Shown here: positions 24,970 through 51,444 of the stretch, piece by piece
Layout of the letters: each line of letters opens with the position of its first letter
Position numbering within the stretch: position 1 is the first letter of the stretch
Assembly (NCBI RefSeq): GCF_004765785.1
Contig: NZ_SBIT01000001.1
Coordinates: forward strand, 62,001-126,000
DNA from: Halorussus ruber
GTDB taxonomy: Archaea > Halobacteriota > Halobacteria > Halobacteriales > Haladaptataceae
Reading direction: 5' to 3'
DNA: 64,000 bases
Made by a program: the position numbers and the translations under genes
The notes under the pieces: generated by a model
Databases searched by the model: none
The model's input: the letters and a program-made list of their open reading frames with translations, nothing else
Told to the model about the DNA's origin: nothing

Positions 24970-25595
24970 CCGCGAGCGTCGAGGGCGACCGCAGGCAGTC
25001 GCCCGCCGCCGAGGATCTGCAAGTCCTCTTCGTGGACAACTTCGACTCGTTCACCTACAACCTCGTGGAGTACACGAGCGAACACGCCGAGACGGAGGTG
25101 GTCCGCAACACGGCCTCGCTGGCCGACGTGCGGGAGGCCGACCCGGACGCCATCGTGGTCTCGCCGGGGCCGGGACACCCGGCGAACGAGCGCGACGTGG
25201 GCGTCACTCTCGACGTGTTCCGCGAGGTCAGCCCCGAGGTGCCGACGCTCGGGGTCTGTCTCGGACTGGAAGCCGCGGTCTACGCCTACGGCGGGTCGGT
25301 CGGACGCGCTCCCGAGCCAGTCCACGGCAAGGCCTTCCCCGTGGACCACGACGGGCGAGGCGTCTACGCGGGGCTGGAACAGGGGTTCCGCGCCGGTCGC
25401 TACCACTCGCTGGTTGCGACCGAGGTCCCCGACTGCTTCGAGGTGACCGCGACGACCGACCACGAAGGTGAGGAACTGGTGATGGGTGTGCGCCACCGCG
25501 AGCATCCCATCGAGTGCGTCCAGTTCCACCCCGAGAGCGTGCTAACCGCGGTCGGCCACGACGTGATTCGGAACTTCGTCCGTGAAGTGGCGTAG
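24966..25595 (+). CDS. trpG: anthranilate synthase component II (glutamine amidotransferase)
   Basis: The 209-residue class I glutamine amidotransferase has the motifs VDNFDSFTYNLVEY, VVSPGPGHP, the nucleophile Cys in LGVCLGLEA, and the His/Glu pair in VQFHPESV. The usual GHQ after the catalytic CLG is replaced by LEA. The ATG at 24966 gives a 4-base overlap with trpE and a short N-terminal extension. It is the last gene of the operon; trpC, trpA and trpB are not in the window. Confidence 0.95.
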   Translation: MTASVEGDRRQSPAAEDLQVLFVDNFDSFTYNLVEYTSEHAETEVVRNTASLADVREADPDAIVVSPGPGHPANERDVGVTLDVFREVSPEVPTLGVCLGLEAAVYAYGGSVGRAPEPVHGKAFPVDHDGRGVYAGLEQGFRAGRYHSLVATEVPDCFEVTATTDHEGEELVMGVRHREHPIECVQFHPESVLTAVGHDVIRNFVREVA

Positions 25596-25850
25596 ATTCG
25601 TCTCTCGGACTACGATTGGCTCCGCCTTTTCAGGTTAGTCGGACTGGCAGTTGATGAGGTCATCGACACTGCTGACTGACTCGCCAGCTCCCTGCCCACA
25701 ACTGCGCGAAACGTCCGGTAAAGGTTGGTCCCGTGCTCAGATTTAAATCTTCGTGGCGGTCGCTCTGTCCGGGGATAAGACAGGATATTATTTCCTAAAG
25801 GAATATTTTTTTATATAAATGGATTTCTATTTCTTTTCCGACGCGCTCGA
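25596..25850. other. spacer after trpG with candidate ncRNA
   Basis: The region contains the candidate small RNA (25628-25720, minus) with its promoter-like ATTTAAAT (25741-25748), then an AT-rich tract with T7 at 25806-25812 that could end plus-strand transcription. No protein-coding frame is supported here. Confidence 0.5.
25628..25720 (-). ncRNA. candidate small structured RNA, copy 1 (family N)
   Basis: On the minus strand, CACGAAG-ATTTAAAT (BRE-like bases and TATA, 25741-25755) precedes a segment nearly identical to one at 50912-51045. Shared blocks include CCGGACGTTTCGCG (cf. CCGGACGCTTCGCG), AGCTGGCGAGTCAGTCAGC, AGTGTCG, then ACTGCCAGTCCGACTAACC. CTGG/CCAG and GCAGT/ACTGC can pair and enclose a small hairpin (GATGA/TCATC) whose counterpart in copy 2 is much longer. 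The 5' end is estimated from TATA spacing and the 3' end from the limit of similarity. A MITE-like repeat is the main alternative. Confidence 0.45.
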
Positions 25851-26427: not shown

Positions 26428-29400
26428 ATGAGCGGTGCGGGCGAACTCACGGCCGACGAACTCACTCTCCCCATCAAGCGAACCGAAGGCGAGACGCTCG
26501 AAGAGCGGCTCACCGGCAACGCCTATCACAACATCCTCCCGGCGCGCTACCTCCGGAAGAACGCCGACGGGGACCTCATCGAGGAGCAGGAGGACCTCTT
26601 CCCGCGCGTCGCCGAGAACATCGCGCTGGCCGAGGCCGTCTACGAGGCCGAGAACCGCGACGAGGAGATTACGGTCACGCCCGACCAGCTCAAGCCCGAC
26701 CACCCTCGGCGCGACGAACTCGCCGCGGAAGTGTTCGGCAAGGGCACCACGGCCGACGACGACGCCGAAACCACCCTCTCCATCTACAACGTCAACAAGT
26801 TCGCTTACGAGACGGTGGTTCCGGACCTCCCCGACGAGATTCGAGACCACGTCGAGGACGTGCGCGAGGAGTTCCAGACGCTGATGGAGGATCTCTCGTT
26901 CATGCCGAACTCGCCGACGCTGATGAACGCGGGCGACGAACTCCAGCAGCTCTCGGCCTGCTTCGTGGACTCGCCGGGCGACGACATCACCGACATCCAC
27001 CAGACCGCCAAGGAGGCCGCCGAGGTCTTCCAGTCCGGCGGCGGCATGGGCTACGCCTTCTGGAAACTCCGACCCTACGGCGACGCGGTGGGTAGCACGG
27101 GCGGCATCGCCTCCGGCCCCATCACCTTCATGCGGACCTATGACCAGATGTGCGAGACCATCGCGCAGGGCGGTGCCCGGCGTGGTGCCCAGATGGGCGT
27201 CATGCGCGTCTCCCACCCCGACGTCATCCAGTTCATTCACGCCAAGAACAAGGACGTGAGCCTCGCGCACACCCTCCGCCTGAACGACCCCGACGACTAC
27301 ACCCACAACTCGTTCAAGGAGGCCCTCGAAGAGGCCCGCGAACTCATCGACGACGAGGGTCGCGTGCCCAAGCACCTCCGGAACGCCGCCGAGGGTCACC
27401 TCTCGAACTTCAACATCTCGGTCGGCGTCACCGACGACTTCATGGACGCGGTCAAGAACGGCGAGGAGTTCACCTTCACCAACCCTCGCACGGAGGAGCC
27501 GCACATCGCCACCGAACACACCAAGGAACTCTACGAGATGTTCGGCCTCGGCGAACACGTCGAGGTCGGCGAGGAGCTTTCGGTTCCGGCCGAACTCGTC
27601 TGGGACCGCATCGTGGACGGTGCCCACGAGAACGGCGAACCCGGCGTCATCTACCTCGAACGGGTCAACAAGGAGCACTCCTTCGACGTGGAGAAACACC
27701 CCGACCACCAGATTCTGGCGACTAATCCGTGCTTGACTGGTGATATGGAAGTCGCCGTTGCTGGTGATGAAGTGTCAGTTCCAATTTCGGAGCTTACAGA
27801 TGAGAATGAACTAGAACTGTTGGCACTGACTGATGATGGGGAAGTAGTGACTGCACGAGGAGTTAATCCACGTCTTACAAAGAAGGATGCAGACATCCTT
27901 GAATTGACCACTGATAAAGGAACAAAACTCCGCCTCACTCCAGATCATGAGGTCCAGTTGGAAAGTGGTGACTGGGTAGAGGCTCAAAACCTTGAGCAAG
28001 GTGATGAGCTTGCTTTCCACGAATCCGGAAACTGGTCTTTCACTACCGAACCCAAAACCCTCAGCGATGGTGGCGATACGCTAACTTGGTCACAAGAGAA
28101 CGGAGGCATTCCAGAACATGGGTTTGAAACAGTCTGCGTTGAATCTATTACGGAAGCCGGAACGGAAGACGTGTACGACATTACCGTTCCGAGACATCAC
28201 AACTTCTTCGCTGGCAATGTTAGTGAACAGGATGGGCCACCCCTCTTCGTCAACGTTCACAACTGCGGTGAACAGCCATTGGAGGAGTACGAGGCCTGTA
28301 ACCTCGGGCACATCAACCTCTCGACGCTGGCCGACACAGACGCCCCAGACTGGCGCGTCTGGTACGACGAACACGGCGACGAGTACGACGATTTCGAGGA
28401 GGCAGTAGACGCCTTCCTCGCCGACGCGATGGCGTGGGACGACTTCGACCACCGCATCGAGTACGGCACGCGCTTCCTCGAGAACGTCGTCACGATGTCG
28501 GACTTCCCGGTCGAGAAGATCGAGCAGAAGGTCCGCGAGATGCGCAAAATCGGCCTCGGCGTCATGGGGCTGGCCCAGCTCTACATCCAGCTCGGCGTCG
28601 AGTACGGCAGCGAGGCCGGAAACGAAATCGCTCGCCAGTTGATGCGCTATATCAACCACGAGAGCAAGTGGGCCTCCCACGAACTCGCCGAGGAGCGCGG
28701 CTCCTTCGACGAGTGGGACAACAGCAAGTACGCCGACCCCACCGAGTACCGCGAGTGGTTCGAGAAGCAGACCGGCCTCGACGCCGACAACTGGGAGGAC
28801 GGCTTCCCGGTCCGGAACCACAACACGACGACGATTGCCCCCACGGGGACCACCTCGATGGTCGGCAACACCACGGGCGGGTGTGAACCCATCTACAACG
28901 TCGCCTACTACAAGAACGTCTCCGACGACGTGCAGGGCGACGAGATGCTCGTGGAGTTCGACGACTACTTCCTCCGCGTGCTGGAGGACAACGACATCGA
29001 CGTCGAGGAGGTCAAGCAGGAGGCCCAAGACCAGATGGCGGCAAACGAGTTCGACGGCGTCGAGGGCCTCGAAACCGTGCCGGACGCTATCGGCGAGCTG
29101 TTCGTCGTGACCTCCGACCTCACCGGCAAGGAACACGCCGCAGTCCAGTGCGCCTGTCAGGAGGGCGTGGACTCGGCAATCTCGAAGACCTGCAACTTCC
29201 CGAACGACGCCAGCAAGGAGGACATGCGCGAGGTCTACGAGTACATCTACGACAACGGCGGCAAGGGCGTGACCGTCTACCGCGACGGCACTCGGTCCAA
29301 GCAGGTGCTGACGACCCGCGCCGACAACAAGGAGTTCGCCGACGAGTCCGAAGCGGCCGAGCAGTTGGTCGAGCAGATCGAGGAGGTCTTCGGCGGTATC

Positions 29401-30093
29401 GAAGGCTTCCTCGACAACGAGGACGTCCGGGCCGCCCTCGACCGCGAGGTCGAATCCATCCTCGAAGTCGCAGACGGCGAGGACGGCGAAGGTCCCTACG
29501 CCAGCAAGCGACCCCGACCCGACGTGCTTCACGGCATCACTCAGCGCATCGACACCGGGTACGGCAAGCTCTACGTCAACATCAACGAGGACGACCAGGG
29601 CCGACCCTTCGAGCTGTTCGCCAACATCGGCAACTCCGGCGGCTTCACCGCCTCCTTCACCGAGGCGCTGGCCAAGACCATCTCGACCGCGCTCCGGTCG
29701 GGCGTGGACCCCGAGGAGATCGCCGACGAGCTACAGGGCATTCGTAGCCCGAAGGTCGCGTGGGACAAGGGCGAGCAGATCAACTCCATCCCCGACGCCA
29801 TCGGCACCGCGATGCGCCGGTACCTCGACGGCGAAGTCGAGAAAGCCTACCCCCAGCAGCAGAACCTCACCGAAGTCGAGGAGGAAGTCGAAGAGGGCGA
29901 GGCCGCGGCGAACGCGCAGGCTGACACCGGTCCGGAAACCGACGGCGGCGCGGTTGCGGCCAGCAAGGAGGCCGACCAGCAGGACATCATCGACTCGGGC
30001 GAGAGTCCGGAGTGTCCCGACTGCGGGTCGCTGTCGCTGTACTATTCGGAAGGCTGCAAGACCTGCGAGTCCTGCGGCTGGAGTGAGTGCTGA
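26428..30093 (+). CDS. nrdJ: adenosylcobalamin-dependent (class II) ribonucleotide reductase with intein
   Basis: The 1221-residue precursor consists of about 1043 extein residues plus a 178-residue intein (435-612). The enzyme reduces ribonucleotides using a cobalamin-generated thiyl radical. Visible family blocks are SACFVDSPGDDITDIHQTAK, GGGMGYAFWKLRP, the active-site NPC/GEQPLEEYEACNLG (split by the intein) and NTTTIAPTGTTSMVGNTTGG. A C-terminal zinc ribbon (CPDCGSLSLYYSEGCKTCES, ending CGWSEC) carries the cysteines that re-reduce the active site. The ATG at 26428 follows ACCCACGC. No NrdB-type small subunit adjoins it, as expected for class II. Confidence 0.95.
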   Translation: MSGAGELTADELTLPIKRTEGETLEERLTGNAYHNILPARYLRKNADGDLIEEQEDLFPRVAENIALAEAVYEAENRDEEITVTPDQLKPDHPRRDELAAEVFGKGTTADDDAETTLSIYNVNKFAYETVVPDLPDEIRDHVEDVREEFQTLMEDLSFMPNSPTLMNAGDELQQLSACFVDSPGDDITDIHQTAKEAAEVFQSGGGMGYAFWKLRPYGDAVGSTGGIASGPITFMRTYDQMCETIAQGGARRGAQMGVMRVSHPDVIQFIHAKNKDVSLAHTLRLNDPDDYTHNSFKEALEEARELIDDEGRVPKHLRNAAEGHLSNFNISVGVTDDFMDAVKNGEEFTFTNPRTEEPHIATEHTKELYEMFGLGEHVEVGEELSVPAELVWDRIVDGAHENGEPGVIYLERVNKEHSFDVEKHPDHQILATNPCLTGDMEVAVAGDEVSVPISELTDENELELLALTDDGEVVTARGVNPRLTKKDADILELTTDKGTKLRLTPDHEVQLESGDWVEAQNLEQGDELAFHESGNWSFTTEPKTLSDGGDTLTWSQENGGIPEHGFETVCVESITEAGTEDVYDITVPRHHNFFAGNVSEQDGPPLFVNVHNCGEQPLEEYEACNLGHINLSTLADTDAPDWRVWYDEHGDEYDDFEEAVDAFLADAMAWDDFDHRIEYGTRFLENVVTMSDFPVEKIEQKVREMRKIGLGVMGLAQLYIQLGVEYGSEAGNEIARQLMRYINHESKWASHELAEERGSFDEWDNSKYADPTEYREWFEKQTGLDADNWEDGFPVRNHNTTTIAPTGTTSMVGNTTGGCEPIYNVAYYKNVSDDVQGDEMLVEFDDYFLRVLEDNDIDVEEVKQEAQDQMAANEFDGVEGLETVPDAIGELFVVTSDLTGKEHAAVQCACQEGVDSAISKTCNFPNDASKEDMREVYEYIYDNGGKGVTVYRDGTRSKQVLTTRADNKEFADESEAAEQLVEQIEEVFGGIEGFLDNEDVRAALDREVESILEVADGEDGEGPYASKRPRPDVLHGITQRIDTGYGKLYVNINEDDQGRPFELFANIGNSGGFTASFTEALAKTISTALRSGVDPEEIADELQGIRSPKVAWDKGEQINSIPDAIGTAMRRYLDGEVEKAYPQQQNLTEVEEEVEEGEAAANAQADTGPETDGGAVAASKEADQQDIIDSGESPECPDCGSLSLYYSEGCKTCESCGWSEC
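27730..28263 (+). mobile_element. mini-intein in nrdJ at the catalytic cysteine
   Basis: The insertion begins Cys (CLTGDMEVAVAGDEVSVPI) and ends VNVHN followed by Cys613 of the extein. Block B is LRLTPDHEVQLESGDWVEA and block F is VYDITVPRHHNFFAGN. The length of 178 residues leaves no room for a LAGLIDADG homing endonuclease. The segment is visibly poorer in G and C than the rest of nrdJ. Between block F and the terminal VHN it has about a dozen extra residues (SEQDGPPLF). The site lies directly before the radical-bearing Cys of NPCGE. Confidence 0.95.
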
Positions 30094-50332: not shown

Positions 50333-50881
50333 ATGGCAGACGACCTGACTGCGACGCTTCACACGACGCACGGCGAGATAGAAGTACAGCTCTTCGACGA
50401 GCGCGCCCCGCGAACGGTCGAGAACTTCGTCAATCTGGCGAAGCACGACCCCGCCGCGAACGACGACCCCGCGCCGGACACCACGACGTGGAAAGACCCC
50501 GAGACCGGCGAGGTCCGCGGCGACTCGCTGTACAGCGACGTGCCCTTCCACCGCATCATCGCGGACTTCATGATTCAGGGCGGCGACCCGACCGGCACCG
50601 GCCGCGGCGGCCCCGGTTACGAGTTCGAAGACGAGTTCCACGACGAACTCCGCCACGACGACGCTGGCATCCTCTCGATGGCCAACAGCGGTCCCGACAC
50701 CAACGGCTCGCAGTTCTTCATCACCCTCGACGCCCAGCCGCACCTCGACGACCGCCACGCGGTCTTCGGCAAGGTCGTAGACGGCATGGACGTGGTCGAG
50801 GAGATCGGCTCGGTCCCGACCGACCACAACGACAGCCCGAACGAGGAGGTCCTCCTCGAGCGGGTCGAGATTCACGAATAG
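50333..50881 (+). CDS. cyclophilin-type peptidyl-prolyl isomerase
   Basis: The 182-residue enzyme starts MADDLTATLHTTHGEIEVQL and carries the cyclophilin blocks PFHRIIADFMIQGGDPTGTG, ILSMANSGPDTNGSQFFIT and HAVFGKVVDGMDVVEEI. It catalyses cis-trans proline isomerisation in the cytoplasm. The insertion KHDPAANDDPAPDTTTWKDP is typical of haloarchaeal members. ATG 50333 is the first one giving the family N-terminus. Confidence 0.94.
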   Translation: MADDLTATLHTTHGEIEVQLFDERAPRTVENFVNLAKHDPAANDDPAPDTTTWKDPETGEVRGDSLYSDVPFHRIIADFMIQGGDPTGTGRGGPGYEFEDEFHDELRHDDAGILSMANSGPDTNGSQFFITLDAQPHLDDRHAVFGKVVDGMDVVEEIGSVPTDHNDSPNEEVLLERVEIHE

Positions 50882-51293
50882 AAGCGCCGCTCGTTCTTTT
50901 TGGCACAGCCGTTTCCGGTTAGTCGGACTGGCAGTCACGGGGTAGGGGCGACTCCGGTGCCACCAGCGAGGCGACGGAGTCGCCGAGACGACACTGCTGA
51001 CTGACTCGCCAGCTATCTGCCCATAACCACGCGAAGCGTCCGGGCAGGGTTCGTTGCGCGCTGGTATTTAAATACTCGTGACGGCGGACCGATTCTCCGA
51101 CATGAATGCGCCGGGAGCGAAATCCCGCGGTAAAGAAATCATATTGTTATCTTAAAACAATAGAACAATGTCTAAAGCAATGTAAGGGTATGTAGTAAGT
51201 GGAAAATTACATATCGGATAGAACTCTACCACTTCCTTCCTCGTCCGAGCAGACCGAAACCCACTTCGGGGAGAGTCGTCAATCCACTCCTGC
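50882..51293. other. spacer between the cyclophilin gene and tRNA-Leu
   Basis: This 412-base spacer holds candidate ncRNA copy 2 with its promoter-like box (50912-51080). An AT-rich stretch follows (about 51135-51220), with repeats of aacaat. No protein-coding gene is supported. Confidence 0.55.
50912..51045 (-). ncRNA. candidate small structured RNA, copy 2 (family N)
   Basis: On the minus strand CACGAGT-ATTTAAAT (51066-51080) precedes the element. Blocks CCGGACGCTTCGCG, AGCTGGCGAGTCAGTCAGC, AGTGTCG and ACTGCCAGTCCGACTAACC match copy 1. Between them a long GC hairpin (GGCGACTCCG...CGGAGTCGCC) replaces the short one of copy 1. Conserved flanks, a variable apical hairpin and a conserved promoter fit an RNA gene. 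The 5' end is estimated from TATA spacing. Confidence 0.45.
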
Positions 51294-51382: not shown

Positions 51383-51431
51383 CTTTTTATTGCGAGCGCA
51401 GTCGCCGCTGGCGACTGCGCTCGATAAAAAG
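51383..51431. terminator. large bidirectional terminator-like hairpin
   Basis: A 14-bp GC stem CGAGCGCAGTCGCC/GGCGACTGCGCTCG with a 3-base loop (51393-51423) extends outward into CTTTTTAT/ATAAAAAG. It directly follows tRNA-Leu and offers a T-run on both strands. Confidence 0.65.
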
Positions 51432-51444
51432 CTGGACCAAAAGC

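Follow-up and report, generated by a model that had tools for sequence, protein, structure and literature searches.

The window analysed here, a 64-kb stretch of the Halorussus ruber genome, carries two related elements on its minus strand. The 3' end of the first (copy 1) faces the stop codon of trpG at 25595, and that of the second (copy 2) faces the stop codon of a cyclophilin (PPIase) gene at 50881. The two copies had been predicted from shared sequence blocks, and we find them as located: the promoter box, CCGGACG, the P3 hairpin and the 3' block follow in the same order in both, and CCAGTCCGACTAACCNGAAA and GCTGGCGAGTCAGTCAGC are each found exactly two times in the window, where 0.01 occurrences are expected for the first and, at up to three mismatches, 0.12 for the second. 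An AT-rich palindrome (25796–25813) lies just upstream of the copy 1 promoter. The features of the two copies are as follows.

25749–25753, minus strand: copy 1 BRE, CGAAG, of which CGAA is conserved in 133 promoters
25741–25748, minus strand: copy 1 TATA box, ATTTAAAT; TT.AAAT is conserved in the family
25724–25733, minus strand: copy 1 family-specific promoter box, CGGGACCAAC, between TATA and the predicted start, not generally shared by tRNA promoters
25617–25718, minus strand: copy 1 predicted RNA of about 102 nt, short form of class A (R1 match, 113 bits); conservation stops after GAGCCA
25713–25717, minus strand: copy 1 P1 5' strand, CGGAC, pairing with GTCCG at 25640–25644
25695–25705, minus strand: copy 1 P2 5' strand, GCAGTTGTGGG, pairing with 25647–25658
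25671–25688, minus strand: copy 1 P3 hairpin, GCTGGC-GAGTCA-GTCAGC, with compensated versions GGTGGC/GTCACC and GTTGGC/GTCAAC
25647–25658, minus strand: copy 1 P2 3' strand, CTCATCAACTGC, pairing with 25695–25705
25635–25645, minus strand: copy 1 P1 3' strand and invariant linker, AGTCCGACTAA, nearly invariant in the family
25625–25634, minus strand: copy 1 P5 hairpin, CCT-GAAA-AGG, with a GNRA tetraloop; strongest mutual-information signal in the family
25617–25624, minus strand: copy 1 tail, CGGAGCCA, conserved in the family
51066–51073, minus strand: copy 2 TATA box, ATTTAAAT, preceded by a BRE-like ACGAG at 51075–51079
50901–51042, minus strand: copy 2 predicted RNA of about 142 nt, long form of class A (R1 match, 98 bits)
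51020–51030, minus strand: copy 2 P2 5' strand, GTGGTTATGGG, pairing with 50931–50941
50996–51013, minus strand: copy 2 P3 hairpin, GCTGGC-GAGTCA-GTCAGC
50947–50984, minus strand: copy 2 variable P4 hairpin, an inverted repeat with arms at 50947–50961 and 50970–50984
50909–50918, minus strand: copy 2 P5 hairpin, CCG-GAAA-CGG, a compensated version of the copy 1 hairpin
50901–50908, minus strand: copy 2 conserved tail, CTGTGCCA

The loci of the original prediction stand, but its 3' limit does not: the predicted RNA runs about 11 nt further, to GAGCCA in copy 1 (25617) and GTGCCA in copy 2 (50901), and the whole P5 hairpin lies inside it, cut through by the 3' block as first drawn. Similarly, the central hairpin (P4), proposed to be paired in both copies, is paired in copy 2 but essentially absent from copy 1; what the two have in common is a P2 stem enclosing P3, copy 1 being the short form.

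Searching haloarchaeal genomes with the conserved core, as had been suggested, showed that the family is present in 17 of the 18 genus genomes, usually at 6–14 copies each, and also in other haloarchaeal families. The genome of the window itself holds at least 13 copies by the 3' block search (a reversed-pattern control of which gave no matches) and six by the P3 block search. We collected 151 matches, 135 of them with a clear 5' frame. The order of the elements is fixed in all copies: BRE/TATA, a CGGGACSAAC box, CGGACG, a variable arm, AGUCCGACUA, a short GNRA hairpin and CUGAGCC. The consensus of 133 promoters reads CGAA.GTT.AAATACGAAG.CGGGACSAAC, in keeping with the haloarchaeal BRE CGAAA and TATA TTWT (PMC4983044), and its CGGGACSAAC box has C in 98% and A in 99% of the copies. 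Promoter boxes are kept in nearly all framed copies, and in these 133 promoters the spacing is conserved, as expected of an independent small RNA gene. A similar motif in some tRNA-Leu promoters had prompted the idea of a tRNA-like stable-RNA promoter, which we dropped: the motif was found in 4 of 30 tRNA upstream regions against a background of 6%, showing no clear enrichment.

Downstream of the promoter, the frame of the RNA gene has the consensus CCGGACGCTTCGCGCGGT on its 5' side and ACCGCCAGTCCGACTACCCCGAGAGGGCTGAGCCA on its 3' side, with no conservation beyond. The constant parts of the unit are near-invariant, and the flanks drop to a background of about 0.5. Judging from TATA spacing, transcription would start about 22–25 nt after the TATA box, at or beside CCGGACG. 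The span from GGACG to GAGCC measures 64–252 nt (median 100), so that the predicted RNAs would be about 65–250 nt in size, depending on the arm. Since U-tract terminators, a common though not universal trait of small RNA genes, are lacking (of 135 copies none has T5 within 40 nt, three have T4 and three A4), we placed the 3' end where conservation stops; the missing U-tract suggests that this end is probably made by processing or by unusual termination. A downstream T-element was considered as terminator and rejected, as it adjoins only 5 of the 135 copies and in one case (L120) sits inside the RNA gene. A TTTTTGGTCCAGNTTTTT repeat occurs with one mismatch at 51426–51443 on the minus strand; it is a dispersed element present in 26 of 28 family genomes, lying 36–84 nt past the 3' frame of a few copies, and in one genome (G027) within the RNA gene.

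The case for a structured RNA was examined by covariation. Helices P1, P2, P3 and P5, drawn by hand on 12 sequences, were 97% paired with nine pairs double-changed, and RNAalifold alone returned the same four main helices. With the covariance model that the original prediction had called for, 96.3% of cells in 100 sequences were paired and 15 of 25 pairs had changes on both sides, in an alignment fitted to the model. In these model-fitted sequences, double-changed cells numbered 196 against 34 in shuffles, none of 500 shuffles reached the observed value, and sliding the partners cut pairing to 18–46%; mutual information calculated from the same alignment with no structure given put P5 and P2 pairs on top. 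The fold is retained across families (42 sequences, 91% paired). For several copies the minimum-energy fold was unlike the consensus, and single-sequence folding energies were mostly no better than those of shuffled sequences; because the setting is GC-rich we regard such energies as uninformative, and the structural evidence is the covariation. Two other pairings were discarded: GGGCAG with CTGCC, our first choice, was displaced by an 11-bp P2 with covariation support, and a pseudoknot between the P3 loop and GACU showed no covariation and is broken by the loop variants GACUCA and AACUCG.

Each of the two window copies faces a plus-strand gene tail-to-tail, with its 3' end 20–25 nt from the stop codon of that gene. 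Such an arrangement would also suit an element belonging to the convergent gene (a 3' UTR, a terminator or a processing element) rather than a minus-strand RNA. In paired positions, though, G.U outnumbers C.A by 167 to 24 on the minus strand, and the RNA is therefore read from that strand, as is also indicated by the orientation of the BRE and TATA. Moreover, for other copies the next gene is 100–480 nt away or the downstream gene lies on the same strand, and we hold a plus-strand element to be extremely unlikely. A compact conserved fold located where the predicted transcript starts might instead be the leader or riboswitch of a downstream gene. This explanation fails because the downstream neighbour lies on the opposite strand in 19 of the 23 copies examined, as do all close neighbours of the copies at the aminotransferase site, leaving it scarcely credible. 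The RNA-gene reading, by comparison, was proposed from two copies and holds over about 135, with a promoter, conserved closing stems and a variable apical arm, and with a conserved, covarying structure on one strand as would be expected of an independent small RNA gene. We are thus highly confident that the two window elements belong to a family of small structured RNA genes not described before, in which every gene has a promoter of its own.

Shared boundaries in many copies, similarity that is lost sharply outside them and loops that tolerate inserted palindromes could also suggest a dispersed mobile element (MITE or SINE-like) carrying a promoter by chance. The genomic sites speak against this. 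Copies adjoin an aminotransferase gene in 14 Halorussus species, one per species, and copy 1 is the syntenic orthologue of copies beside trpG in 12 species, which is evidence against a MITE; such sites are fixed across families as well as species. Copy 2 has counterparts in five genomes, and 11 copies of one genome (G012) have a counterpart in another (G026), usually with similar flanks. Near-orthologues are 93–95% identical in their frames, 85% in the promoter, 78–80% in the flanks and 75% in the arm. Recent whole-unit copies are absent, within-genome promoter identity being at most 0.92. No terminal inverted repeat spans copy 1 (only the upstream palindrome at 25796–25813 is seen there), the pairs of 9 nt around copy 2 are imperfect, and a search of viral, phage and plasmid collections found the element in none. 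A MITE, which the original prediction had named as the outcome that would overturn it, is thus not what we see: promoter boxes are kept and syntenic sites are stable. The mobile-element explanation is already largely refuted, and we rate it very unlikely.

Copies that we inspected in two genomes (G000 and G013) are intergenic, with varied neighbours. Within the same family (g2, g3), matches to the P3 pattern (L007–L014) lacked the frame and were rejected. With the 3' pattern, members were also found at the aminotransferase site of two further haloarchaeal lineages, and covariance models of promoter plus constant frame (R2 and R3) gave matches in five haloarchaeal families (f1, f3, f5, f7 and f8) as single genes at conserved places, the gene at the aminotransferase site being shared by five families. 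Among the matches inspected, true copies lie mostly between the aminotransferase gene (PF00155) and a gene for an ArsA/Get3-like ATPase (PF02374); a second site is beside a carboxylate-amine-ligase-like gene, named by resemblance only. Matches are mixed once weaker than about 1e-8, and in the ones that we inspected it was often mainly the promoter that matched, so that tallies of 83 and 186 genomes overstate the spread. Six weak R2 matches without the frame (L391–L394, L396 and L397) were set aside as mainly promoter matches. These are unrelated upstream regions with a TATA and a GGGACCA-like box, and they were chosen by the model itself, so enrichment of the box is unproven; it may also occur in other promoters. 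In one nearly complete Halorussus genome (G019) there was no convincing copy (best R3 match 5e-6); here the RNA is either not needed or has been lost.

The arm behaves differently from the rest of the unit. Copies inside single genomes carry differing arm classes, and on the trpG side the frame is the same in eleven species and holds several different arms. A single arm is common to most G013 copies (mean identity 0.80) and the syntenic G000 copies have another (0.43–0.67), with promoters no more alike inside G013 than elsewhere (0.70). Among the G013 copies L144–L153 and L215, most have one species-specific GC-rich arm, with promoters and P5 remaining copy-specific. Because arms differ across species at the same sites, the arm appears to be replaced independently of promoter and frame, probably by gene conversion. 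Such within-genome replacement at fixed gene sites would be an unusual form of concerted evolution, limited to part of an RNA gene. In G011, two copies (L038 and L039) have arms with long C/G runs and N gaps, the gaps probably being assembly breaks in long GC palindromes.

Sequence comparison thus establishes the gene unit and its strand, the structure and vertical inheritance of the gene, and the freedom of the arm. The fold is that of a clamp in which P1 (CGGAC/GUCCG) closes an asymmetric internal loop and the variable arm (P2 and beyond), followed 3' of the arm by the AGUCCGNNUA linker, the short P5 hairpin and the CUGAGCC tail. As for function, protein recognition of the clamp is suggested because the unpaired UCG, GACUA and the tail, around P1 and P5, are invariant while the arm can be swapped. 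The invariant clamp, linker and P5 would then form the binding site of one putative partner protein, the RNA acting as a small ribonucleoprotein or as a protein-titrating RNA, with an accessory arm that drifts or is swapped and a dose set by the many genes that have the promoter box in common. We found no candidate for the partner, and whether the constant clamp is bound by a protein is, on sequence grounds, roughly an even call; the full statement, an RNA gene family with a protein-bound constant clamp, we would put at even chances. A more specific version, which we offer only tentatively as an unlikely one, is a novel haloarchaeal class of RNA–protein particles with one conserved clamp, a shared promoter box and about ten genes in one genus, whose interchangeable arm is replaced by concerted evolution within species and perhaps represents a differing cargo or target for each RNA.

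The chief alternative to a protein-recognised clamp is that the linker or tail contains a base-pairing seed. The invariant unpaired GACUA linker or CUGAGCC tail would serve as mRNA seed of a multicopy, trans-acting sRNA family, redundant copies providing dose control. The conservation of unpaired segments, and of one end across multiple copies, would fit, and haloarchaea have many intergenic sRNAs, among them sRNA132, whose putative target is a phosphate transporter operon (PMC6560208). Against this, the putative seeds adjoin stable helices and the tail varies (CUGAGCC, CGGAGCC, CUGUGCC), and we consider base pairing possible but rather doubtful.

With Rfam 15 at gathering thresholds, the window yielded two tRNAs only; copy 2 had no match at E up to 5, and with E raised to 10 the short-class and class A copies gave chance-level matches only. 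A search of the literature on Halorussus small RNAs, haloarchaeal multicopy RNAs and archaeal candidate structured RNAs, which covered subscription journals little, found the family unreported. Among known systems, the Y RNAs, which bind Ro60, and the bacterial Y-like RNAs have a conserved base near the RNA ends and an apical part that varies freely. The clamp family is like them in both respects and unlike them in having no sequence or Rfam match and in its extra 3' P5 hairpin, to our knowledge not a Y RNA feature. It resembles H/ACA guide RNAs in having a hairpin with an internal loop in an RNA of 65–75 nt, but there is no ACA/ANA box near the 3' end and the internal loop is invariant, whereas the H/ACA loop is target-specific. 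A stretch of letters in the element resembles the human SRP (7S) RNA Alu-domain sequence; SRP models gave no match at E up to 5 or 10, and we treat the resemblance as coincidence. Like haloarchaeal intergenic sRNAs (H. volcanii sRNA132, PMC6560208; start-site atlas, PMC4983044), the genes are intergenic with their own BRE/TATA promoter, but the sRNAs in these two sources are reported individually, unlike the multicopy family with a covarying fold described here. There are few archaea-specific structured RNA families that have their own promoter, and neither Rfam 15 nor the searched literature gave a match to this one; with many natural copies, a clear fold and promoter, and single-copy orthologues at fixed haloarchaeal sites, the function of this family is open to experimental test.

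Elsewhere in the window, a ribonucleotide reductase gene (26428–30093) is broken by an in-frame intein splicing domain (PF14890, residues 447–597).
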